DNA from: an uncultured bacterium | Lineage (GTDB): Bacteria; Planctomycetota; Phycisphaerae; Phycisphaerales; SM1A02 | Length of the DNA: 64,000 bases | NCBI GenBank assembly: GCA_903831295.1 | Contig: CAIKXA010000010.1 | Location: 1-64,000, forward strand | Reading direction: 5' to 3' | In this document: in pieces, positions 8,671-22,992 of the stretch | How the letters are laid out: the number at the start of each line of letters is the position of its first letter | Numbering within the stretch: position 1 is the first letter of the stretch | Made by a program: the position numbers and the translations under genes | The notes under the pieces: generated by a model | Seen by the model: only the letters and a program-made list of their open reading frames with translations | What the model was told of the DNA's origin: nothing | The model's database searches: none

Positions 8671-8689
8671 CACAGTGATTTACTGTGAT
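8671..8689. promoter_or_regulatory. Short perfect inverted repeat between two minus-strand genes
   Basis: TCACAGT and ACTGTGA (7 bp) are separated by five bases, immediately after the stop of the dockerin gene and about 45 bases upstream of the aminopeptidase start. There is no T-tract, so it is more like an operator or a weak 3' hairpin than a terminator. Confidence 0.25.
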
Positions 8690-11394
8690 TAAAGGAGTCC
8701 CAAAAGAATTCCCAGATCCGACGAGTCGGTGGTGCCATCACTGTTGAGATCGGCGATTCCAGGCAGGCCATATTGACCCAGCAATGTTCCAAGATCGGCG
8801 GAGTTAATCACGCCATCTTTGTTGATGTCTCCATATAGCAGCTCAACATATCCCGTTGATTCAATCACCGCGCCCGAGGCGAACCCATTCTCGCCGCGCA
8901 TGGTGGCGATCTTTGACGCACGCCCATTCTTAAGCGCGCTCGGGTTGTTGACATTGCGCACCGTGGCGAACTTTTGAGTTCCTTGATCCAACAACGTGTG
9001 CAAGCCAATCACGCTGCCGCCAGTGGAGATTTGAGTTTGGTCGCCCACTGTGATTGTTCCGTTGGCGAATGTGTTGAGTTGCAGAACATCAACGGAGTCA
9101 TTGACGCCATCATTGGAGGCCACCGCCAAACTGAATCCGCCGTTGCGTTGCACAGCCGAGACAGCCTTGCCTTGCACGGGCCGGCCAACGGAAATTCCTG
9201 TGGGTGCGGACATGCTGTACAAACCATTTGTTGGAGAGATAGATCCGCGTAAGAAACATGCGACGGGCCGTGTTGAAGCGGGAATATTGGATGGAATGGA
9301 ATTACATGCCGCGAAAATATCTTTCACACCATCGCCATCGATGTCGGCGATTGCGAGGGACACAGGTATGTAACTTAACACGCGCGGTATTCCAGCTTGC
9401 GGGCCGTTGGTTGTCATAGTCACTTGTTGAATGAAACCAAGTGTCGCACCTGCAAGGGCCGTAGTGGCGGTGTCTCCAACCGCGGTCGTATCACTAAAAT
9501 CATCGCCGTTCACATCTGTTCCGCGCACTGTGCGGGGGACACCGGAAAGTGGAATGTCACTGGATGTCGCATTGGTTCCACCGATGTTTTTCAGACTGCC
9601 AGAACTGCCGGCGAATGCATTTTCTGGATTCAACGCGGAAGTTTTTTCAGTACCCACGGAGACTTGGCCTGGTCCGCCGCGCGTGGCGCTAGGTTCCAAC
9701 ATGCATACGCAGGTTGGAAGTTCGCCGGAATCAAGCGCGCGTGTCCAAATCACTCCGCCAGTCGCGCTGTATAGCGTGACAAAGCCCGCGCCATTGAGAA
9801 TTGATGTGACAGCGATTTCGGGCGCGTTGTCGCCCACCACATTGCCCGCGGCGATTGCGTTTGGCGCGGTGCCTGAAGGCAGCGCGAAAGTGCGCAGTTG
9901 CGCGAAGGTTCCATCGCCCATGTCCTTCATGATTTGCACGGAATTGCTTGAGCCAACAATGAGGTTCACAACATCGTCGCGTCCATCACTGGTGAAGTCG
10001 GCGCTGGCTGATGCCAATGGAACGTTGGCGAGATTTGTGGTGGTGCTCGGCGCGGGCTCCACGATTGTGGCGCGCACGCAATGCAATTGCAGTTTGTCCT
10101 CGGTCAATACTTGTTCAAAGGTCAGGCCGTTTGGAAGCCCGTCGCCGTTTTGGCCAACCCAACGAACAGATGAGAACTTGTTGTTGTTTGGATCGAAGGC
10201 GCCGCCATACGTTGGATCCAATGAGATCAACGTATAGACGTTGCCTTCGGCGGGAATGGTTCCATCTGTGCTATGGATAAAGAGCGGACCAGCAATGCTT
10301 GCAAGGCCATCAACATTCAGTTGTAGATTGATCAGCGCGACATCGGGTGTGCCGCACGTTGGATCCGTGCAAGTGGGATCGTTGAAATTTTTACCAAACA
10401 CATTCATGACGGCGTAAGGAGTGGCGCTGGTATTCGCGCCATATGTAAATGCTGCGCCTTGCACCACAATGTTTGTGCGCCCGTTATATGCGCTGGGAAA
10501 AGTATGTAGATCAATTTGGCCGCCGAAATTCACGGAGCCAGTGAATGTGAGATTGCCCCACGCATCAAGAAATGATCTTGGTTGAAATATGGTTCCACTC
10601 TCGCTCCAACTCCCAATCGTGTTGTAGGAATAATCTTGATCTCCATCCATGCTGCCTTTGAGCGAAACCCAGATGTCAGAGCCAATGACAAGCGTGTCAA
10701 CTTCATTGAAATTCACTATGCCGCTGTTGAACAACTGAATATGGTGGATGCCACCAGTTGCGCCCGCGGCCTTGACGCTATGCGTGTATAGATTGCTCGA
10801 AGACAAATCAAGTTCGATAGAGCTTGAGCCCAGCGTGGCAAGTTCAATGCGATTTGAATAAATGGATGTGTAATTGATATTCCATGTCGCGTGATCGGAT
10901 TCAAGGACCAATGGCAGCGTATCGTTGGGTGAGCCGTTATAAACATAGCCACCAGAAACATTTACGCTGTAGGGCATGTACGTGCCCGCGGCAGGCGCAA
11001 ACGCAATTCGACCGCCGTGCACGGTGAGGCTGTGGCTATTTAAATGAAGCGATAGACCTGGATACCAATTGTTGGAACCAGTGCTGAGCTCCAAGGTCTT
11101 CACCGAGTTGGAGCAATCAAATGTGATCTGTGGATTTCCAGAAATCTTGGCGGCCGTTGCGTAACCCGGAATTCCCGCGCTCCAGTTGCTTTGATTTTCA
11201 AATGTGCTGGTGATGTTTGGAAAGAGCCACGTGGATGTTGCCGCGCCGGCTTCGGAATAGTTGGGGGTTCCGTCGCCATCGGCGTCGCATGGATCGGTTT
11301 GGATAGCGACGGCACCATGAGTGGCAAGCGCGCTGGAAGTGAGAGCGCACCACGTGGCTGTTGCGATGCAACTGAAAGCGATGTTGTATTGCAT
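8689..11394 (-). CDS. Large secreted protein with VCBS/FG-GAP-like repeats and C-terminal dockerin-like module
   Basis: A 901-residue extracellular or surface protein. It begins with a signal peptide (MQYNIAFSC ... SSALA) and a calcium-site-like DADGDG segment. A long beta-rich region follows (autotransporter-like repeats of Asn, Ser and Gly). The second half has FG-GAP/VCBS-like calcium-loop motifs such as DFTSDGRDDV, DVNGDDFSD and DIDGDGVKDI, typical of beta-propeller repeats. The last 50 residues form a duplicated dockerin-like module: YGDINKDGVINSADLG, then DLNSDGTTDSSDLG. I chose the start at 11394, 22 codons inside the longest frame, because the signal peptide begins there. Its role is unknown; secreted adhesion or polymer binding is inference. 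Confidence 0.75.
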   Translation of the reverse strand: MQYNIAFSCIATATWCALTSSALATHGAVAIQTDPCDADGDGTPNYSEAGAATSTWLFPNITSTFENQSNWSAGIPGYATAAKISGNPQITFDCSNSVKTLELSTGSNNWYPGLSLHLNSHSLTVHGGRIAFAPAAGTYMPYSVNVSGGYVYNGSPNDTLPLVLESDHATWNINYTSIYSNRIELATLGSSSIELDLSSSNLYTHSVKAAGATGGIHHIQLFNSGIVNFNEVDTLVIGSDIWVSLKGSMDGDQDYSYNTIGSWSESGTIFQPRSFLDAWGNLTFTGSVNFGGQIDLHTFPSAYNGRTNIVVQGAAFTYGANTSATPYAVMNVFGKNFNDPTCTDPTCGTPDVALINLQLNVDGLASIAGPLFIHSTDGTIPAEGNVYTLISLDPTYGGAFDPNNNKFSSVRWVGQNGDGLPNGLTFEQVLTEDKLQLHCVRATIVEPAPSTTTNLANVPLASASADFTSDGRDDVVNLIVGSSNSVQIMKDMGDGTFAQLRTFALPSGTAPNAIAAGNVVGDNAPEIAVTSILNGAGFVTLYSATGGVIWTRALDSGELPTCVCMLEPSATRGGPGQVSVGTEKTSALNPENAFAGSSGSLKNIGGTNATSSDIPLSGVPRTVRGTDVNGDDFSDTTAVGDTATTALAGATLGFIQQVTMTTNGPQAGIPRVLSYIPVSLAIADIDGDGVKDIFAACNSIPSNIPASTRPVACFLRGSISPTNGLYSMSAPTGISVGRPVQGKAVSAVQRNGGFSLAVASNDGVNDSVDVLQLNTFANGTITVGDQTQISTGGSVIGLHTLLDQGTQKFATVRNVNNPSALKNGRASKIATMRGENGFASGAVIESTGYVELLYGDINKDGVINSADLGTLLGQYGLPGIADLNSDGTTDSSDLGILLGLL

Positions 11395-11553
11395 GTGTGA
11401 AATCTCGAGGAGCGAATTGAACAATCTTGCGGACCTAACCAAAGTACCCCAAAGAGCCAAAGTTTCAAATTATTTCGAGCAATTAATTGGAAATTTAATA
11501 TCGATAGGGCGCGAATTAAAGAATATTTTGAAGTCTTTTATGGATTCAGCGCG

Positions 11554-12633
11554 TTATTTAGAGGCGGCCAATAGATTGGCGACGTGCTCGAACTGCGCAA
11601 TCGCGTGGGCAATGTGCGCGGACGTGATATCAAGATGCGTGACCGCGCGAAGTCGGGTGGGATCAAGCGCCAAAGTGCGAACGCCGCGTTGCTCCAGTTG
11701 TGCGGAAAATTGCGCGGCGGTGCCCAGCGCGGGATCGATGTGAATGAACACCATGTTGGATGGAATTGCGTTTGGTTGCGCATGCGGACGAAGGCCCGCG
11801 ATGGTGCTGACGCCTTGGGCAAGTTGACGCGCGTGCGCGTGGTCATGCGCCAAGCGTTTGATGTTGTTGTCAAGCGCGAACAAAGCGGCGCCCGCGAGCA
11901 AGCCGCTTTGACGCATTCCGCCGCCAAACATTTTTCGCAAGCGGCGAGCGCGTTCGATGGTTTTTGTTGGGCCGCACAGCGCGCTTCCGGCGGGACAGCC
12001 AAGTCCTTTTGAGAAGCACACGCTGATGGTGTCGGCGTGTTGCGCGAATGCGAGTGGTTCGTAATTGCCGGCCACGCATGCGTTCCATAAGCGCGCGCCG
12101 TCCACATGCACAATGAGTCCGTCGCCGCGGGCTTGCGCGCTGACGGCTATGAACGCTTCAACGCTCCAAAAAGTTCCGCCACCGCGGTTGTGCGTGTTCT
12201 CCACCACCAACATGCGCGATCGCGGAGCGTGAACAGAGTTGGGCCGGCGTGCGGCGGAAACATCGGCGGGTGTGAACATTCCGCCGTCGCCATGAAGCGG
12301 CTGAATCATGCAACCGGAAAGCGCGGCTGGTGCGCCAGTTTCATAATGAATGATGTGGCTGTCGTGATGCGCGATAATTTCGTCGCCGCTTTCACACTGC
12401 GACTTGATGGCCAGTTGATTGGCCATGGTTCCGCTGGGCGTGAAGACCGCGGCTTCTTTTCCAAGCATGCGCGCCACGCGTTCCTCTAGTTTTTGCACGG
12501 TGGGTTCGTCGCCAAGAACGTCGTCACCGAGCGGCGCGGCGCGCATGGCGTGCCACATGGCGTCGGTGGGTTGCGTGACGGTGTCGGAGCGAAGGTCTGC
12601 GATAAATTGTTGCGCGTTGGAATTCACGCGCAC
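11554..12633 (-). CDS. ltaE: Low-specificity threonine aldolase
   Basis: PLP-dependent lyase splitting threonine (and often allo-threonine) into glycine and acetaldehyde in the cytoplasm. The 359-residue product has the family's hallmark N-terminus (LRSDTVTQPT), the GDDVLGDEPT segment, the cofactor-binding HVDGARLWNA (176-185) and the Schiff-base lysine in CFSKGLGCPAGS (K209). Length is typical. The start is a GTG at 12633; another GTG two codons in (12627) is possible. There is a gap of 159 bases to the dockerin gene downstream, so they need not be one unit. Related beta-eliminating lyases are the main alternative, but the motifs fit threonine aldolase well. Confidence 0.92.
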   Translation of the reverse strand: MRVNSNAQQFIADLRSDTVTQPTDAMWHAMRAAPLGDDVLGDEPTVQKLEERVARMLGKEAAVFTPSGTMANQLAIKSQCESGDEIIAHHDSHIIHYETGAPAALSGCMIQPLHGDGGMFTPADVSAARRPNSVHAPRSRMLVVENTHNRGGGTFWSVEAFIAVSAQARGDGLIVHVDGARLWNACVAGNYEPLAFAQHADTISVCFSKGLGCPAGSALCGPTKTIERARRLRKMFGGGMRQSGLLAGAALFALDNNIKRLAHDHAHARQLAQGVSTIAGLRPHAQPNAIPSNMVFIHIDPALGTAAQFSAQLEQRGVRTLALDPTRLRAVTHLDITSAHIAHAIAQFEHVANLLAASK

Positions 12634-12725: not shown

Positions 12726-13526
12726 CTATTTGTTCGCGGGCTTATTCACAGGGTTGTTCAGGGGCACGCTTGCAATTTCGCCGTCAATGATTGGTGTAAG
12801 CGTGATGCCGCCCGCGTTCTCTACTTGCAATTCGTAGGTCTGGCCAGTAGAGACAAGCTTGTACACGGCCTCGCCTTGCGCCACGCGCACATGTTCATTG
12901 GCGGCGGCGTCGGGTTGAGTGGCGAGCAGCCAAAAATGTTTCCAGATGGCTTGCTCAAATTTCTGCGCGTCGCCCGCGGCGTAGCCATCGGGAATTCCGC
13001 CGGGTGTGTCAATGGGGAAACCATCTTTGGGATTCATGGAGTCTGAATAAATGCGGCGCAGCAGAACCAATGAGCGACCGCGCAGAAGGTCGTTGCCAAC
13101 AACATCGTCCTGCGGAAAGCGCACGGTCCATGCGTCCACAAAAAGAGTGGCGCCAGGAATGGTGTAGGTGCGCTTGCCAATTTCGCGGCCTTGATCATTG
13201 AGTTCGATCAAGTTCACGGATGTCGAAATAGTGCTGGGATCAAGTTTGGAAATGTCGCTTGCGGTGAGCGGTTTTTTTTCTGGATCGTTGGTGAGAAATT
13301 GTGAACGAATATTGATGCGCGCGAGACGGCGAGTTTTTCCAAGGCGTTCCGCCATGACATGGCGAAGTTCTTTTTGTATTTCAATTTCAACTTCCAAGCG
13401 CGCCACTTCGCGTTGCAATTGAATGGTGCGCGTGATGGACAGCGCCAACCAACCGCCGCCCACAAGAAGGGCCAGCGCAACGCTGAGGGACAGGATGCGA
13501 ATGATGCTGCGCATAAATGGAAACAT
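12726..13526 (-). CDS. Membrane-anchored coiled-coil protein of unknown function
   Basis: No known family recognised. The 266-residue product has one N-terminal membrane segment (about residues 8-30, LSLSVALALLVGGGWLALS), followed by a charged helical stretch rich in Gln, Arg, Glu and Leu (about 30-65) that looks like a short coiled coil. The remainder is a mixed alpha/beta, probably periplasmic domain. The tail is a repeat-like NNPVNKPANK. Start: ATG 13526 or ATG 13514; the longer open frame begins with a TTG at 13532. It is divergent from the three-domain protein gene, so the two may share a regulatory region of about 100 bases. Confidence 0.65.
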   Translation of the reverse strand: MFPFMRSIIRILSLSVALALLVGGGWLALSITRTIQLQREVARLEVEIEIQKELRHVMAERLGKTRRLARINIRSQFLTNDPEKKPLTASDISKLDPSTISTSVNLIELNDQGREIGKRTYTIPGATLFVDAWTVRFPQDDVVGNDLLRGRSLVLLRRIYSDSMNPKDGFPIDTPGGIPDGYAAGDAQKFEQAIWKHFWLLATQPDAAANEHVRVAQGEAVYKLVSTGQTYELQVENAGGITLTPIIDGEIASVPLNNPVNKPANK

Positions 13527-13624
13527 CGGCAAAATGATGGTTTGAGCCGTAAAAGTTGTTGAAATTGAGCGTGCCCCAGCATTGGCGCGCGCAATGGGAT
13601 GCGGCGAGTGTGCGGGCTGTATTC

Positions 13625-16318
13625 ATGCGGGCGCAATGGGATGCGTTACGCTTTGTGGCTGTGGCGGAAGATTTTAAGAATCAATTCATGTTGGCAAGCC
13701 AAGCGTTGAATGCCGCATTGTTGGGCGACTCCGTGGCGGGTGCGTGGGCGGGAAGCATGAAGGGACAGGCGGGGGTGTTGGTTTCCGCCGGGCCAAGTTT
13801 GTCCAAGAACGCGCATGTGTTGTCGGCCGAGGGTTTTTCCGATCGCTTTGTCACGGTGGCCACGGCCGCCGCCGCGGGATCGTTGCGCGCGATGGACTTG
13901 CGGCCGCAACTTGTTGCGACAACGTCCGACTTAAGCGCGGCCACGCGGCAGTGGCTGGGTTCGTTCAACGCAAATATTGTGCGTGGCGGCGGTAAATATA
14001 ATCCGACCGATTTTGGCGCGCGCGCTGATGAAGTTGGCGTGATGGCTGAGTTGCCAGTGGATGTAGCAGATTCGATCGTGGGATACATCTTGCTGCGCTT
14101 TTTAAGTTGCGATCCCGTCGTGTTGGTTGGATTTGATTTGGCGTTTATCGATGGCGTGGCCCATGCCAAGGGCAATGAACTTGATTTGCAGTGGGGCACG
14201 CAAATTTCAACGGTGCGAAGTTGGGACTGGTGGCACACGCAGCGAATATTTGGCAACTCCAAGCAATTGCAGCGCGAAATGCAGACCAACGAAACTGGTG
14301 CGGTTGGAGAGGTTGGCGCAGGCGGCGGTCCTAAAGAGAGCGGCGAGGATCAAGAGCGCAGCGTGGTGACCAATCAAGCGTTGCGCCGAGAGAGAGCCTT
14401 GCTTGAGGCGGCGTTTGCGCAGGACACGACGCTTGGTTTGCGCGTGATTGACGCGACCGAGGGCGGCGTGACAAAACGAAATGCGTTGGTGGAGCCATTG
14501 GCGCAATGTTTGGCGACATACGCGTTGACGCGAAATCCAAAAGTGAAATGGAATCAGCGCGCCAAGAGCAAAGTTGTGAAAGCGCAACCGAGCGCGGATG
14601 TTTTAGTAGGTCCGCCGGCTCATAGCGACGCGGGTGCGCAGAATATTGCGTCAACACAAAAGTCGCTGAGCAACATCACCACTGAACAAATCGCGCCTCG
14701 GGTTGTGGCGGTGATTGCCATTGATCCACTGCGTGGCGGAACTGGGGTTGAACGCTCGCTTGAATTGGAGTTTGGTGGACGCACTGTGTTGCGCCGCACT
14801 ATTGATCGACTTCTACAGAGCGATCAGATTGAGCATGTGTGTTTGGTGGCGCCCGAGCATTGGGACCATCGAGCTGCGCTGGATGGACTTGAGCCAAGTT
14901 CGCATTTGCACATTGTGTATGCCGCAGATTCAGTGTTCGGTCCCGGGCATCGGGACATTCAATCGGCGCGCGCGTGGAGTGATTCATGTTCTCGCGGTGG
15001 CATCGCCAATCTTTGCGTGTTCGACGAAGTATTTTCCGCCAAGGCGGCGCTGTTGGCGTGCGAACATGTCCACGCCAACGCGGTGTTGGTGTGCGGCGCG
15101 GATTGGCCTTTGGTGGCGGTGGATGAATCGTGGGGTGTGCGCGGTTTGATGGAACGCTGGCGCGCGAGCGCGGGTGATTTGAAATTTGTTTGCTCGTTGG
15201 CGGCGCCTGGAATTGGCGCGTGCTTCCTACCAATAGAGAGCGTTCGCTTGTTGGCCAGTGGCGCCGCGGGCAGCATTGGCCAGTGGATTGAAGAACGTGC
15301 TGATGATCGAAATGCCGCGGAAATCATTGATATTCCAGACTTCGTGGCCGCGGTGCCCGAGCGATTGGTCATGGATACTCCGCGTTGCATTCAACGCATT
15401 CGAAGAGCGCTTGAGCCGCTGTTGCATGGAGCCGAAATTTCCGCGGACGTTCAGTTTGAGGCGCTTGCTCGACATGCAAGCGCGCCGCCAACTTTTGTGC
15501 CGCAATTTCTAACCATTGAATTGAACACGGGGCGTCGCGGTTGCGGCTTGGCAAGTCCACATCGCTTCGGCACATTGCAGCGACCCACCATGACTCCCAA
15601 GCGGATGGATCGAATTCTTGCGCGCGTGGCGGAGGCGCGCGACGTGGTGGTGACACTTGGTGGAGCGGGTGATCCACTAGTGCATCCAGATGTTGTCGAG
15701 TTTGCAAAGCAGATTCGAAAGGCGGGTGCGTTGGCGATCTCGGTGCGCAGCGAATTACTGTCGCTTGACGCGCTTGAAAAGTTGGAGGCGATTGACGCCG
15801 ATGTCGTCACCGTTGACTTGCACGCCACCAACGCCAGCGAGTATGTGCGCATGATGGGCTTTGATCGATTTGCATTCGCGCAGAAGGCGTTGGAAACGCT
15901 GATGCAAAATCGCCGCGCTGAAAGCGGCGCCGCGAAATGGTTGGCGCGGCCGTGGGTTTTGCCTCGCATTGAGCGCCTGCGCGACATGGTGGATCGCATC
16001 GCGGCGTTTGGCGAGCGTTGGCGCGATCGAGCTGGTGGATATTGCGTGGATTCGCCGCCGCAAATTGATCCTTGGGGCGACATCATCGCCGATGCGCCGC
16101 TTTCTGCCGCGGGATTTTCCCAAGGCCTAAGTCAGAGCGAACGCTTGGCGCTGACTGTGTTGTCCGACGGAAGAGTGCCAGCTCAAACGGACGATCTGCT
16201 TGGAACAACTTCTGTGGGCAATGTTGATTCGGAGGATTTGCTCACGCTTTTCCGTTCCTCGCGTCAACATCGCACGCGTTCGGCGGTGAAGCATTTGGAA
16301 AAACTTTCCGCAAGATAG
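13625..16318 (+). CDS. DUF115-like / nucleotidyltransferase-like / degenerate radical-SAM-SPASM-like fusion protein
   Basis: An 897-residue protein with three recognisable parts. Part 1 (about 35-290) resembles the DUF115/MAF family linked to glycosylation: GVLVSAGPSLSKNAHVL, VVLVGFDLAFIDGVAHAKG and the conserved TEGG. Part 2 (about 358-625) resembles SpsF-type nucleotidyltransferases: VVAVIAIDPLRGGTG, then FGGRTVLRRTIDRLLQS. Part 3 (about 628-885) looks like a radical SAM/SPASM enzyme: GGAGDPLVHPDVVEFAKQI and the SPASM-like end VLSDGRVP with VGNVDSEDLLTLF. However, the CxxxCxxC cluster site is replaced by NTGRRGCGLASPHR and the SPASM cysteines are missing. It may modify or recognise glycans without radical chemistry. 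Start uncertain: ATG 13625, or an upstream TTG at 13556 that would include an in-frame repeat. Confidence 0.72.
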   Translation: MRAQWDALRFVAVAEDFKNQFMLASQALNAALLGDSVAGAWAGSMKGQAGVLVSAGPSLSKNAHVLSAEGFSDRFVTVATAAAAGSLRAMDLRPQLVATTSDLSAATRQWLGSFNANIVRGGGKYNPTDFGARADEVGVMAELPVDVADSIVGYILLRFLSCDPVVLVGFDLAFIDGVAHAKGNELDLQWGTQISTVRSWDWWHTQRIFGNSKQLQREMQTNETGAVGEVGAGGGPKESGEDQERSVVTNQALRRERALLEAAFAQDTTLGLRVIDATEGGVTKRNALVEPLAQCLATYALTRNPKVKWNQRAKSKVVKAQPSADVLVGPPAHSDAGAQNIASTQKSLSNITTEQIAPRVVAVIAIDPLRGGTGVERSLELEFGGRTVLRRTIDRLLQSDQIEHVCLVAPEHWDHRAALDGLEPSSHLHIVYAADSVFGPGHRDIQSARAWSDSCSRGGIANLCVFDEVFSAKAALLACEHVHANAVLVCGADWPLVAVDESWGVRGLMERWRASAGDLKFVCSLAAPGIGACFLPIESVRLLASGAAGSIGQWIEERADDRNAAEIIDIPDFVAAVPERLVMDTPRCIQRIRRALEPLLHGAEISADVQFEALARHASAPPTFVPQFLTIELNTGRRGCGLASPHRFGTLQRPTMTPKRMDRILARVAEARDVVVTLGGAGDPLVHPDVVEFAKQIRKAGALAISVRSELLSLDALEKLEAIDADVVTVDLHATNASEYVRMMGFDRFAFAQKALETLMQNRRAESGAAKWLARPWVLPRIERLRDMVDRIAAFGERWRDRAGGYCVDSPPQIDPWGDIIADAPLSAAGFSQGLSQSERLALTVLSDGRVPAQTDDLLGTTSVGNVDSEDLLTLFRSSRQHRTRSAVKHLEKLSAR

Positions 16319-16320
16319 AG

Positions 16321-16349
16321 ATGACGAATCCCTTTCGCGCTCCTAGCAT
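16321..16349 (+). promoter_or_regulatory. Sigma70-like promoter before the Lon-N gene
   Basis: ATGACG (16321-16326), a 17-base spacer, TAGCAT (16344-16349), then 9 bases to ATG 16359. The predicted transcript would have almost no leader. Confidence 0.35.
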
Positions 16350-16358
16350 TGACTTTGT

Positions 16359-17081
16359 ATGAGCGACACCATCATGGTCGATTTCAATCGACCGATTCCA
16401 CTCTTTCCACTTTCGTGTGTTTCGCTTTTACCGCACGCGGTTCAAGGACTGCATATTTTTGAGCCGCGTTACAGGCAGATGGTGGAGGACGCGCTGCGCA
16501 AAGTGCACGATGGAAATTTATTGACAGCGGGTCCGATCGCCATGGCGATTGTGGGCGCGAAGTTTGTGGACGCGCTCGGGGCCGCGCCCAAGTTGCGGCC
16601 GGCGGTTTGTGTTGGACAAATCGTGCAACACGAGCGGCTGAAAGATGGCAGGCACAACATTGTGTTGCACGGAGTTTGCCGCGCGCGCATCAAAGAAATT
16701 CAAGAGCCAGGTGAATCGCGCGCGTATCGCACTGCCATGTTGCAGCCCATTGATCCGCCCAATCATTTGCCGCCCAAAATGAAAGCGGCGCGAAAAATTT
16801 TGCAGGAGTTGTTGCACAGGCCAATGTTGCAGAGGTTGGCCAGCGTGCAAAAAGTGGCCGAGTGGGCGGATCGAAAGGACATGCCAACGTACGCGGTGAT
16901 TGAACTTGTTGGCGCGGCCATGTTGCGCGACGAAAATGCGCGCTACCACTTGTTGGCTTGCGGCAATCCATGGGAACGCGCCCAACTTGTGGCCAATGAA
17001 ATCGCCCGACTTGAAGGCCTGGTCGCCGCGGCGGATGCGCAGGAAACTTCGCGCTGGCCCAAGGGCTTGAGTTGGAATTAA
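16359..17081 (+). CDS. Lon substrate-binding-domain protein (no protease)
   Basis: A 240-residue cytoplasmic protein made mostly of the LON N-terminal substrate-binding domain (PF02190 type). Seen: IPLFPLSCVSLLPHAVQGLHIF near the start (the classic 'P-L-F-P-L ... V-L-P ... L-x-I-F-E-x-R-Y' pattern, with FEPRYRQMVEDAL following) and the central 'G-x-x-x-R-x-x-I' strand (HGVCRARIKEI). There is no AAA+ module or Ser/Lys protease domain, so it is a stand-alone member. Such proteins are common; their exact role (adaptor or substrate binding) is not settled. It is followed after 36 bases by lemA on the same strand. Confidence 0.82.
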   Translation: MSDTIMVDFNRPIPLFPLSCVSLLPHAVQGLHIFEPRYRQMVEDALRKVHDGNLLTAGPIAMAIVGAKFVDALGAAPKLRPAVCVGQIVQHERLKDGRHNIVLHGVCRARIKEIQEPGESRAYRTAMLQPIDPPNHLPPKMKAARKILQELLHRPMLQRLASVQKVAEWADRKDMPTYAVIELVGAAMLRDENARYHLLACGNPWERAQLVANEIARLEGLVAAADAQETSRWPKGLSWN

Positions 17082-18826: not shown

Positions 18827-21800
18827 TTATTGGCTGAGACCGGTTGTGCTGTTGCCGGTGAGTCCAGGTGATTTCGCTCCAACGGCTGGAATTGAAAGAC
18901 TGATTCCAAATGAGTAAACATCGGTGAGGGAGTCGTAGCCCACGCCGGCGCTTAAATTGAAATCTGGAAAGCTACGACTCAGCGTCGCAGTGGCGGCGCG
19001 CAAGTTCTGCTCCACCAAATCAATCTGCGGACTCAGCGTGAATGTGTACAGCTTTGAAATCTGATACTCCACGCCAAGTTGCAGCAACTCGTCGTTGATG
19101 TAGTAGTTTGTTGGATCAAAATTATTGATGCTGCGGTACTCAATAAAGAAACTAGTGTCGGGCGAGTGTTGCATTCTCATGCCCAAGGATCCGCGAGCCA
19201 TGTTTTTAAATGCGCCAGTTGAGTACGTTGGAACATCATCAAGCATCCACTTCACCGAACCGTACGCTGTGAATGTGCTTGAAATAGCCCAGGAAGTGCT
19301 GCCGTAAAGATGGCTGCCCCACTGTGAAAGTTCGGGGCGCCATGAATAAAAAGATGGAGTTGGACTTTGCGCGTAGGCCAAGCCTGTGTTGCTGGTGCGC
19401 CCAAAGTTTGCGCCGCCATTATTCACAACAGCGCCCGCATCAAGCGTGATCCAATCAACGCTGGTCCACGCGCCAGGACCGCCGCGATATGTTTGCAGCC
19501 GTTGCTTTGCGCCAATTTGCGCCACTTGCGCCGCGGAAATTCCTTCAACATTCTGATCAAAGATTGGGTACTCGCCTTTGTCGGCGGTGTCGTAGCCGGC
19601 CCACAAAGTTGAAGTGGGCTGCACCACATAACGCAAACGATTCACGTCAAGCGCCGCGTTTTGCACGCCGTCAAACGACTGGGAAAATTCAGCGCTGCTG
19701 CGCGCGCCAATACCCATGAGCCCGCGCGTGGTGCCAGACTGGCCGTCGGTGCCATTGATGGTGGAGTAGTTGGTGAAATCATTCAGCGTGTACGCGATCG
19801 CGGTGCCGTTGATAAATGGCGTGATCTTGGCGGGAGAGATGTCGATTGGGTACGCCAACTCTTGGCGCGTGTAGGCGCGCACATACATGTCCTCGTTGTA
19901 ACCCGCCGCTTGGTAGGCGTCTGAGATATTTGTGTTGGCGTTGAATATTGGATTTGCCGCGGTGCCAGTGGCGTTGGGCGCATTGAACGCCCCACTGGTG
20001 ACGGCGTTCGTGGCGGGCGTTCCATTTTGCAAACGCATGGACATCACATTGGCGGAATATTCCTGCGTCCATGACAAGTGGTCGGTGAAGAACGAATCAC
20101 CGTAACGGCGGTAGGCGGCCTCTGGAAGTTTGTTGACTGAGTAGGGACGGCTGGCCAGCATCCAACTATTGATCACGTATCCATCAAGATCATTTTTACC
20201 CAGCAACGTGAAGGCACTGTTGCCGGATTGCAATTTCAAGAAAGCCACGGTTTCATATTCAAGACGATTGGCGAAATCGTTTTGGCGAAACGTGTTCACG
20301 AAGGCGCCGTCGCTTGTCCACGCAATGGATCCTTGCAGCAGCGAATGTTCATCGATGAGATAGGTGTAATCACCGTCGATCAAGCCGCGATATTTCAAGG
20401 CGGATGTGTACGTCACACCCGTGGATGCTTGCTCCTCATTCTCAAAGTCATAGAAGCCATACATATTCAAATTGCCGCCTAAACCGCTGAATTTTGTTCC
20501 AAGGCCGACGCCGTTGAACGTGTAAATATCGTTGACAAGTTTGGCTTCCAGTCCGGGAATTGGGTCATAGCCAAGCAACGCCCACAAATCCCAGCGCGTT
20601 CCAATTGTGGTTCCACGATATTGGTTGTAGCCCGCGGAAATTTCCGGCAGCACGGTTTTCTCCGGCGTGCCGCTCATGTAGGGCCAGTAGAAAATTGGCG
20701 TGCTGCCAGAACGGAATGTGACATGTCTCGCGTCAATGGTGGTGCCCGTGTCCTTGCCCGGATTTTTGGTCACGGTGATTTTGTCGGCGCCAACGGAAAG
20801 ATGCGGCGTGAAAAATTCGCTGATGCTCACGCGCGCATCAGTGGCCTCAAATTGATCCGCGGATATTTGGCGCATCTCATTGGCGCGCGCGTACACCGGA
20901 ATGCCGGCGCGCACATACGTTCTCAGCACCGCTTGAGCGGCAACGGCGCGGTTGAGCGCGATGTCGTAATACACTTGTTGCCCGCGCATGATGTAGTTGC
21001 CGTCGGTGGCGATCACATCGCCCTCCAAATAAATTCCTTGCACGGTTTTCACATCGAGTTGGCCAGAGTCCTCGCGGATTTTTGTCAGCGATCCGGGCTT
21101 CAGAAAAACCACGGCGCGTTCGCTGGACAATCGAAGTTCGCCGGTCTTGAGGCGCGGATCATTGGCGGTGAGATCAATCAGCGCGCTTCCTGTCACCATA
21201 ATCGTGTCGGTTTTTTCATCAACCGATGTTTCACGGCCAGCGAAAGTGACCAGGTCGCCGGGCTGAAAAATTGCGAGCGAACCGCGTTGCGCGAGAGCAA
21301 CTGTGGTGTCTTGCGCCGCCATCACGGGCGGCGTGGGCAGAGCCGCGCCCACGATCATTGGAGTTTCGCCCGAAGCGACTTTGGGTTGATCAACATATGG
21401 TTGCGTTAAAAGTTTGGCGGGTCCGCTGGCCAGAGTTTGCAGATAGCCCTTGAGACGCAAATCGCCATTGGTAAATTCTTGTGACGGCGGCGCTTTGTCC
21501 TCCAACAGTGGAACTTTTAATTTCACGTCGCCGCGAAAACTCGCCGTCACCAAAACGTCATCGCCAGCCACTCCAAGACCGGCGCGTCGGGTGGGCTCGC
21601 CCACTTCCGGAAAATACATCGCGCATTGCGTGATCAATCCCGCCGCCGATGGAATGCGATTGATCCACACCACAACTTTTTTGGTGGCGAATGAATACGC
21701 GCCCACTGTCACGCGCACATCGCCTTGCACAACAAGTCGGCGCGTGTCATCCACTTTCCAAGCGAAGGCGCGCGTGCCTTCAATAACCAAATCGCTTTTC

Positions 21801-21922
21801 ACCGGCTCGATTGGCAAAACAAATCCGCTTAGGCGATCTCCAGTCACGGTGACATTTGTCATTTCTTGCGCGAGCGCGGCGTGGGTGACGGCCAACATAA
21901 GAATGATCGCTCGGATGACCAT
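18827..21922 (-). CDS. LptD-like outer-membrane LPS-assembly protein
   Basis: A 1031-residue outer-membrane protein. It begins with a signal peptide (MVIRAIILMLAVTHAALA-Q). The N-terminal half has OstA-like beta-jellyroll features (VQGDVRVTVGAYSF, then 'GDVIATDGNYIMRGQQVYYD'), and the second half is a long series of alternating aromatic/polar strands typical of a large beta-barrel, ending near 'GISLSIPAVG'. LptD with LptE inserts lipopolysaccharide into the outer leaflet; the match here is by architecture rather than strict sequence motifs, and no LptE is seen. The start is set at 21922 because an upstream frame adds 67 residues without a signal. It converges on ruvB. It supports a true outer membrane in this organism. 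Confidence 0.72.
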   Translation of the reverse strand: MVIRAIILMLAVTHAALAQEMTNVTVTGDRLSGFVLPIEPVKSDLVIEGTRAFAWKVDDTRRLVVQGDVRVTVGAYSFATKKVVVWINRIPSAAGLITQCAMYFPEVGEPTRRAGLGVAGDDVLVTASFRGDVKLKVPLLEDKAPPSQEFTNGDLRLKGYLQTLASGPAKLLTQPYVDQPKVASGETPMIVGAALPTPPVMAAQDTTVALAQRGSLAIFQPGDLVTFAGRETSVDEKTDTIMVTGSALIDLTANDPRLKTGELRLSSERAVVFLKPGSLTKIREDSGQLDVKTVQGIYLEGDVIATDGNYIMRGQQVYYDIALNRAVAAQAVLRTYVRAGIPVYARANEMRQISADQFEATDARVSISEFFTPHLSVGADKITVTKNPGKDTGTTIDARHVTFRSGSTPIFYWPYMSGTPEKTVLPEISAGYNQYRGTTIGTRWDLWALLGYDPIPGLEAKLVNDIYTFNGVGLGTKFSGLGGNLNMYGFYDFENEEQASTGVTYTSALKYRGLIDGDYTYLIDEHSLLQGSIAWTSDGAFVNTFRQNDFANRLEYETVAFLKLQSGNSAFTLLGKNDLDGYVINSWMLASRPYSVNKLPEAAYRRYGDSFFTDHLSWTQEYSANVMSMRLQNGTPATNAVTSGAFNAPNATGTAANPIFNANTNISDAYQAAGYNEDMYVRAYTRQELAYPIDISPAKITPFINGTAIAYTLNDFTNYSTINGTDGQSGTTRGLMGIGARSSAEFSQSFDGVQNAALDVNRLRYVVQPTSTLWAGYDTADKGEYPIFDQNVEGISAAQVAQIGAKQRLQTYRGGPGAWTSVDWITLDAGAVVNNGGANFGRTSNTGLAYAQSPTPSFYSWRPELSQWGSHLYGSTSWAISSTFTAYGSVKWMLDDVPTYSTGAFKNMARGSLGMRMQHSPDTSFFIEYRSINNFDPTNYYINDELLQLGVEYQISKLYTFTLSPQIDLVEQNLRAATATLSRSFPDFNLSAGVGYDSLTDVYSFGISLSIPAVGAKSPGLTGNSTTGLSQ

Positions 21923-22017
21923 GAATACAGGAATGTTACCGCTGAAATGGGCGTCACGATGGCGGAGAAATTTTTGCGGCCGCGTGTTCAATGGATGTAT
22001 CCACTCCACCGGAAACT

Positions 22018-22992
22018 TTATCCACGCCACGCCGTTGCTTGACCAATCATGTCGTGAACTTCCCGGGCCAACCATGAAAGAGCCCAAGAAAATACGGCAA
22101 ATATTGAAAAAACAATGGCCCATTCAGTTTGCGAAATGGACAACATCCATGCCGCCGCCGCGATGGGTGGAAATATCGCCGCGGCCCTGCGCAACGAGTC
22201 GGCGGTTTCATTCACGTTGCTTGCGGCAAGAGCGCGGTTGGATTGCCAAGCGAAGATGGCCATCGCCACAAGCGGCGCCAGCGCGAGCCATGATTCGCCG
22301 TTGGGCCAATCGGCGGCGCCACGGCGAATGGAAAGCCAAGTTAAGCCCGACACCGCCAATGCGCAAAGAATGGAGAGAAGAATTGTGGACGAGCGATCCA
22401 AGCGCGGGCGCTTCTCTAAAACTTTATGCAGCAGCGATCCAGTGGCTACGGTCTGCACCAAGATGAGCGAGGCCGGCAACGTGAATGATTGTCCCATCCA
22501 CGGAATAAAAAAACTTCCTGCTTGCGCCAACCCAAGCATGAGCAATCCAACCGCGGGAACAAAGCGACCCATGGTGTTCCACATAGCAATTCCAAACGCC
22601 GTGAAGAGCGCCACCGCCACACTGGTTTCGCCAAACAGCGAGGCGCCAATCATGCTGGCCAAGAGCGCGGTGAATGTGAGCAGTGTTGCTTGCGCGGTGG
22701 TGAGTCGTCCAGATGAGAGCGGACGGTTGCGCTGAAAAGTTTGATCGCGCCGCGCGTCGAGCAAATCATTCATGCCCGCGGCAAATCCAAAGAGTCCGGA
22801 TCCAATCACCCCGGCCGCCATCAGCGCCAACCACAGCGGCAATGTGGAAATAGGAAGTTGCGCAGTCGCGCCGTCAAAGCGCGCGAGCAGGGTGGCGAAC
22901 ATCACATTCACGGCGGCACCGGCCGCGAGTGGAATTCGCATCAACTGCAGGGCGGCAAAAATTCGGACCAGTGAAACTCGCATTTGAACCAT
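22018..22992 (-). CDS. UbiA-like prenyltransferase family membrane protein
   Basis: A 324-residue integral membrane protein with about eight to nine hydrophobic helices. It has the first Asp-rich motif of the UbiA family, NDLLDARRD, preceded by small-residue helices and followed by RNRPLSSGRLT, both typical. The second Asp-rich motif expected near the middle is not recognisable; at the equivalent place there is a basic 'EKRPRLDRSS'. So it may be a variant enzyme or use a different substrate. Family members attach isoprenoid chains to aromatic or other acceptors at the inner membrane. It begins with ATG 22992 (M4 at 22983 is possible) and is divergent from ribH, with 55 bases between starts. 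Confidence 0.72.
   Translation of the reverse strand: MVQMRVSLVRIFAALQLMRIPLAAGAAVNVMFATLLARFDGATAQLPISTLPLWLALMAAGVIGSGLFGFAAGMNDLLDARRDQTFQRNRPLSSGRLTTAQATLLTFTALLASMIGASLFGETSVAVALFTAFGIAMWNTMGRFVPAVGLLMLGLAQAGSFFIPWMGQSFTLPASLILVQTVATGSLLHKVLEKRPRLDRSSTILLSILCALAVSGLTWLSIRRGAADWPNGESWLALAPLVAMAIFAWQSNRALAASNVNETADSLRRAAAIFPPIAAAAWMLSISQTEWAIVFSIFAVFSWALSWLAREVHDMIGQATAWRG

Follow-up and report, generated by a model that had tools for sequence, protein, structure and literature searches.

The gene at 13625-16318 of the window, by which we mean the whole 64,000-nucleotide stretch of DNA from an uncultured Phycisphaerales bacterium that was analysed here, raises the question of what role may be left to a protein that joins a glycosyltransferase-like domain and a nucleotidyltransferase to a radical SAM/SPASM-like domain deprived of its iron-sulfur cysteines. 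To follow its history, relatives were taken from three sources, namely the window's relatives, a species-level genome collection (79 loci) and a draw across the phylum (392 genomes). Most of the genomes compared are metagenome assemblies, the window genome being 84% complete and other genomes of its genus up to 98%.

The protein is encoded by a single open frame at 13625-16318, with an in-frame TTG at 13556 as an alternative upstream start (Table 1). The original prediction had read three domains from the sequence, and this reading, as a Maf/DUF115 part followed by an SpsF/IspD-type nucleotidyltransferase (NT) and a radical-SAM/SPASM-like part (RS), was borne out by Pfam, NCBIfam, AlphaFold2 and Foldseek. 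Pfam gave matches to MptE-like/DUF115 (residues 46-102, E=2e-7) and Radical_SAM (residues 654-760, E=8e-6), both below the curated cut-offs, and a weak match to NTP_transf_3 (residues 381-514, E=0.005). The best NCBIfam match is TIGR04321 “spiro-SPASM” (residues 610-762, 51.5 bits, against a cut-off of 250 bits), which agrees with the likeness to spirochaete fusions that the prediction had pointed to. AlphaFold2, given an alignment of 63 sequences, returned a model with a mean pLDDT of 86.1 and a pTM of 0.87. When Foldseek matches to this model were allotted to parts of the protein by the family of the matched structure, the first part fell to Maf 5mu5, the middle part to cytidylyltransferases (6oew, TM 0.68 on target) and the C-terminal part to the radical SAM enzymes DesII (E 2.6e-8), BlsE, BtrN, SuiB, PqqE and anSME. 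The radical SAM barrel fold is thus present in the predicted model, and since radical SAM structures, anSME among them, are matched by the C-terminal part, the lack of any such match, which would have contradicted the prediction, did not occur. In the NT, alignment with 6oew indicates that the ARxxSxRLPGK CTP-binding signature has been lost, the profile carrying Arg to Asp, Arg to Gly and Lys to Arg changes and the window sequence reading IAIDPLRGGTGVERSL at this site; with its active-site signature altered in this way, the NT may itself be non-catalytic.

Table 1. Features of the protein and its immediate surroundings, in positions of the window.
Feature	Position	Strand	Remarks
GntG-type PLP aldolase, left flank	11554..12633	-	common to ancestral locus
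Hypothetical protein, left flank	12726..13532	-	related genes upstream in full-length loci L046, L072
Whole protein, 897 aa	13625..16318	+	truncated Maf + nucleotidyltransferase (NT) + cluster-less radical-SAM/SPASM (RS)
Maf/DUF115 core remnant, residues 46-300	13760..14524	+	Pfam; Foldseek to Maf 5mu5; GPSL loop kept
Low-confidence linker, residues 313-353	14561..14683	+	replaces Maf C-terminal helical domain of full-length relatives
NT-fold domain, residues 357-600	14693..15424	+	family motif R...RGG...DE...PG...R; 6oew match
Radical-SAM/SPASM-derived barrel, residues 610-897	15452..16315	+	both Fe-S cysteine sets missing
Former CxxxCxxC site NTGRRGCGLASPHR, residues 634-647	15524..15565	+	
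GGAGDPLVHP	15659..15688	+	counterpart of SAM-binding GGEPLLHP motif
SPASM remnant VLSDGRVP	16157..16180	+	dGxVPxC at same place in relatives outside order
40-base gap	16319..16358	.	NeuA-NeuB-NeuC-HDOD genes here in full-length relatives
Lon substrate-binding-domain protein (LonN), right flank	16359..17081	+	common to ancestral locus

The cysteines of CxxxCxxC are the ligands of the SAM-binding [4Fe-4S] cluster in the radical SAM superfamily. In the window protein all three of these positions, within NTGRRGCGLASPHR, are non-cysteines, the lone cysteine of that segment (C640) lies off the aligned cluster positions, and alignment to homologues shows the SPASM part to have none of the SPASM cysteines, so that the expectation of a cluster site with one cysteine and a SPASM region with none holds. 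The survey of cysteine positions further makes the loss of the SAM-binding Fe-S site ancient and family-wide, as no CxxxCxxC occurs among about 110 NT+RS homologues from all over Planctomycetota. The absence is therefore not a sequencing error, and both this and a merely local loss of cysteines were rejected on these grounds. The motif is present in single-domain radical SAM/SPASM proteins of the same phylum (L157-L159) and also in two proteins that have other N-terminal domains (L161, L162). The SPASM cysteines are kept in proteins of other classes and families (L143-L155) and in most NT+RS proteins of families f5 and f6 of the same order, and the fusions of the window's family, f2 and f4 have lost them, scattered single cysteines aside. 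The cysteine-keeping NT+RS proteins are mostly encoded by a separate gene adjoining the Maf gene. In a midpoint-rooted tree of NT+RS proteins, the 77 proteins of f1, f2 and f4 cluster together with a support of 99 and are separate from the outside-order and f5/f6 proteins. Taken with this grouping, the distribution of cysteines argues for a loss in two steps, and it is a well-supported reading of the sequences that the SAM cluster had already gone when the family spread through the phylum, the SPASM cluster following at about the time that the fusion arose. With the SAM cluster ligands missing throughout the family and the SPASM ligands missing from the window's clade, the barrel is predicted to be incapable of radical SAM chemistry.

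Such a protein could be a non-catalytic scaffold or regulator throughout, in which NT and RS are pseudo-domains that hold a partner protein. The loss of both RS cluster sites agrees with this, as does an NT without ARxxSxRLPGK in a family whose relatives encode a normal NeuA next door. However, the conserved RS residues E632, R637, G680-H687, R708 and R784, of which G680, G682, D683, P684 and H687 are invariant among 63 relatives, follow or end barrel strands in the secondary structure of the model, an arrangement that fits a ligand pocket and places conserved charge elsewhere than on the surface alone. We therefore consider a pure scaffold unlikely.

The full-length relatives, of about 1200 aa, comprise a Maf N-terminal domain, the DUF115 core, a helical domain, the NT and the RS; the first three domains of one of them (L072), when modelled (pLDDT 88), matched whole-chain Maf 5mu5 in Foldseek (E 6e-17). 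Maf is an O-transferase of nonulosonic acids to flagellin that acts before chaperone binding, and its helical C-terminal domain bears a weak similarity to flagellin chaperones and to flagellins (PMC11339370, PMC4065374). In relatives the operon runs fusion, NeuA, NeuB, NeuC, some loci also carrying a PglD-like acetyltransferase, and 25 of the 34 genomes outside the window's genus have a same-strand NeuB no more than 4 kb downstream. Outside that genus the gene is carried by 37 of 38 flagellin-positive relatives and by none of seven flagellin-negative ones, and in the phylum draw, truncated lineages aside, flagellin accompanies the gene in all 51 carriers (Fisher p ~1e-12); both sets of counts are uncorrected for relatedness. 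From family, gene context and co-occurrence, we infer that flagellin is glycosylated in these relatives, and the fusion in flagellated Phycisphaerales very probably takes part in the transfer of nonulosonic (sialic/legionaminic-type) acid to flagellin; a literature search returned nothing relevant on planctomycete flagellin glycosylation with nonulosonic acids. A role of the NT as the sole CMP-nonulosonate (CMP-NulO) synthetase was rejected, as the ordinary NeuA downstream in the relatives' operon means that the NT is not needed for this purpose.

Several of these loci hold further genes of note. A conserved gene of 890-1070 aa, lacking a Pfam match, lies upstream of the fusion in flagellated relatives (L072:2478-5246 (+), L050:2567-5236 (+) and many other full-length loci); it has been lost together with NeuABC in the window's genus, and may belong to the same glycosylation system. 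A B12-binding radical SAM protein encoded between NeuA and NeuB (L154:6690-8171 (-); PF04055 from position 1) might modify the nonulosonic acid. In L151 and L160, Maf is followed by a different, unmatched middle domain and an RS without CxxxCxxC and with SPASM cysteines, a related and distinct architecture. A contig titled Limnohabitans (L055) carries a planctomycete-type fusion and neu operon, and its host label is probably a binning error in the assembly.

In the window's genus, flagellin was detected in none of 16 genomes, some of them 97-98% complete, and FliF above the cut-off likewise in none of the 16. NeuB is lacking in 14 of them and present away from the locus in the other two (G004, G014), and the gene itself is retained in 15. 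The relatives' gene order, a composite of L046, L050, L072 and L180 given that no single fetched stretch showed all genes, is GntG, hypothetical gene, 922-aa gene, 201-aa gene, fusion, NeuA, NeuB, NeuC, HDOD and LonN, and that of the window is GntG, hypothetical gene, short fusion and LonN. These common flanks identify the window's locus as that of the relatives in a collapsed state. Farther out, the window encodes an FG-GAP repeat protein with a weak C-terminal match to dockerin type I (8689-11460 (-), E=0.007) and a 1098-aa protein without Pfam or NCBIfam match (18827-22123 (-)); a gene of 1015-1054 aa occupies the position matching the latter in other genomes of the genus. Within the window protein, the N-terminal and helical domains of Maf are missing and the DUF115 core alone is left, with 83 aa between the DATEGG motif and the NT as against 196-228 aa in full-length relatives. 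The original prediction had tied the first domain to flagellin modification, and this stands for the relatives, with their Neu operon and co-occurrence with flagellin. In the window genome, however, the link is only historical, because the genus is without flagellin, FliF and NeuABC and because only a minority of the conserved residues is left in the truncated Maf part.

A second short-form lineage (L059, L065, L066, L124) is likewise without flagellin. A genome placed near it in the tree (G030), in which flagellin is kept but the Neu genes and part of Maf are missing, is plausibly an intermediate stage; comparison of one with two losses of the Maf flanking domains gave an AU p of 0.06. These lineages amount to a natural experiment, in that the examined lineages which have the gene and lack flagellin have lost the Maf helical domain and conserved NT and RS. 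The disappearance of the helical domain where flagellin is gone and the gene is kept supports a flagellin-recognition role for this domain of Maf.

It could be argued that what is left is a decaying relic of a flagellar glycosylation locus, without present function, as the locus has collapsed and NeuABC, flagellin and two Maf domains have been lost. However, dN/dS by Nei-Gojobori counting is low in close pairs, at 0.015-0.13 for RS, 0.08-0.16 for NT and 0.12-0.29 for Maf, and reaches 0.3 in more distant pairs of the genus. The close-pair values led us to disfavour a functionless relic, which the selection data largely refute; the persistence of the gene in 15 of the 16 genomes and of the same short form in the second flagellin-less lineage likewise speaks against it, and we judge it very improbable. 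As flagella and sugar genes were lost and the protein has remained strongly conserved, part of it must do another job, and the lost cluster sites and selection together argue against both a radical enzyme and a simple relic. As to which part, polar residues that are conserved across 51 full-length relatives served as reference, and of these the Maf core keeps 32% in the window's genus and 39% in the second lineage, the NT 83% and 73%, and the RS 83% and 93%, in a comparison of domains of possibly unequal tolerance and in a genus that is divergent overall. The original prediction had named a scaffold or a new sugar/nucleotide-linked activity as possible roles, and the selection data point rather to a function kept in the NT-RS part, although purifying selection on the Maf core implies that it, too, is not simply decaying.

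That selection on the core, with the survival of GPSL and some core residues, would also be expected if the short protein were still an active glycosyltransferase, working on a new acceptor (a pilin or an envelope protein, for instance) and with a new donor, e.g., CMP-Kdo supplied by the NT. A Maf enzyme has been reported to take Neu5Ac and Kdo as donors (PMC11339370), a range that would accommodate such a change of donor. However, of the polar residues that full-length Maf conserves, about two thirds have been replaced; for several, among them those at the H95, D101, H103, H151 and Q170 positions, this holds in both truncated lineages. With NeuABC absent from the locus and the Maf helical domain missing as well, continued transferase activity appears improbable.

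Taken together, the data are best explained by a retained NT-RS module that has a non-radical, flagellum-independent role and is joined to an inactive glycosyltransferase, an explanation that we hold as a whole with somewhat better than even confidence. The identity of the protein, its history and the loss of its cofactor sites are well supported; its present role and ligands are what we infer from them. The model proposes that the ancestor was a fusion of Maf, NT and pseudo-radical-SAM domains encoded directly upstream of NeuA, NeuB and NeuC, and that the window's genus then lost flagella and NeuABC. The Maf part would have been reduced to a core with most of its conserved polar residues gone, giving structural support, and this remnant is probably inactive as a transferase. 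NT and RS, kept under strong purifying selection, most likely constitute the part that still works, in which the NT would bind a nucleotide or nucleotide-linked ligand and the mouth of the barrel (E632, R637, GxGDPxH, R708, R784) could, without radical chemistry, bind a second ligand that is acidic or phosphorylated. A more specific proposal, which we offer as tentative and think rather doubtful, is that the NT-pseudo-radical-SAM pair is a new non-radical enzyme or sensor built on a radical SAM barrel, which once served flagellin glycosylation and which, in planctomycete lineages without flagellin, has become independent of flagella, NulO and transferase function and acts on another nucleotide-linked substrate. 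The family offers a readable series of cofactor loss in one radical SAM lineage, in which the SAM cluster, then the SPASM cluster and then the partner domain disappear, and makes the job of a spiro-SPASM-like module directly testable, separate from flagellin glycosylation.

Among known systems, TIGR04321 spiro-SPASM is matched by all 13 NT+RS proteins of one alignment (best 1.2e-46), over profile positions 75-506 of 510, i.e., across NT, RS and SPASM. However, the best planctomycete score is about 159 bits and none reaches the 250-bit cut-off, and the window protein differs further in lacking the SPASM cysteines and in being fused to Maf. Adding CxxxCxxC to a planctomycete member raised its score against the TIGR04321 model by 8 bits, the same addition being worth 12-20 bits in several intact families and 5 bits in a pseudo-SAM family. 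Brachyspira plasmid matches were confined to the radical-SAM/SPASM half of the query, and the literature search returned no paper naming spiro-SPASM or TIGR04321 and nothing relevant on DUF115 with SpsF and radical SAM. TIGR04347, a haloarchaeal family named as pseudo-SAM/SPASM, is weakly matched by 5 of 13 NT-RS relatives; it is, however, a separate family, matched far under its cut-off and with neither NT nor Maf in its name. The NT shares the fold of the SpsF/NeuA/IspD cytidylyltransferases (6oew), but is without their CTP-binding signature, and the relatives' operon has a separate, ordinary NeuA. With the radical SAM/SPASM enzymes BtrN, BlsE, DesII, PqqE and anSME the RS shares the barrel fold and the GxGDP motif, and NT-RS relatives outside the order still have SPASM cysteines, whereas CxxxCxxC occurs in no NT-RS member. 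Finally, the full-length relatives resemble the Maf (Maf_flag10/DUF115) flagellin glycosyltransferase 5mu5 in their three Maf domains and in a gene context of NulO synthesis, whereas the window protein has parted from it in its N-terminal and helical domains, in most of the conserved polar residues of its core and in its flagellin partner.
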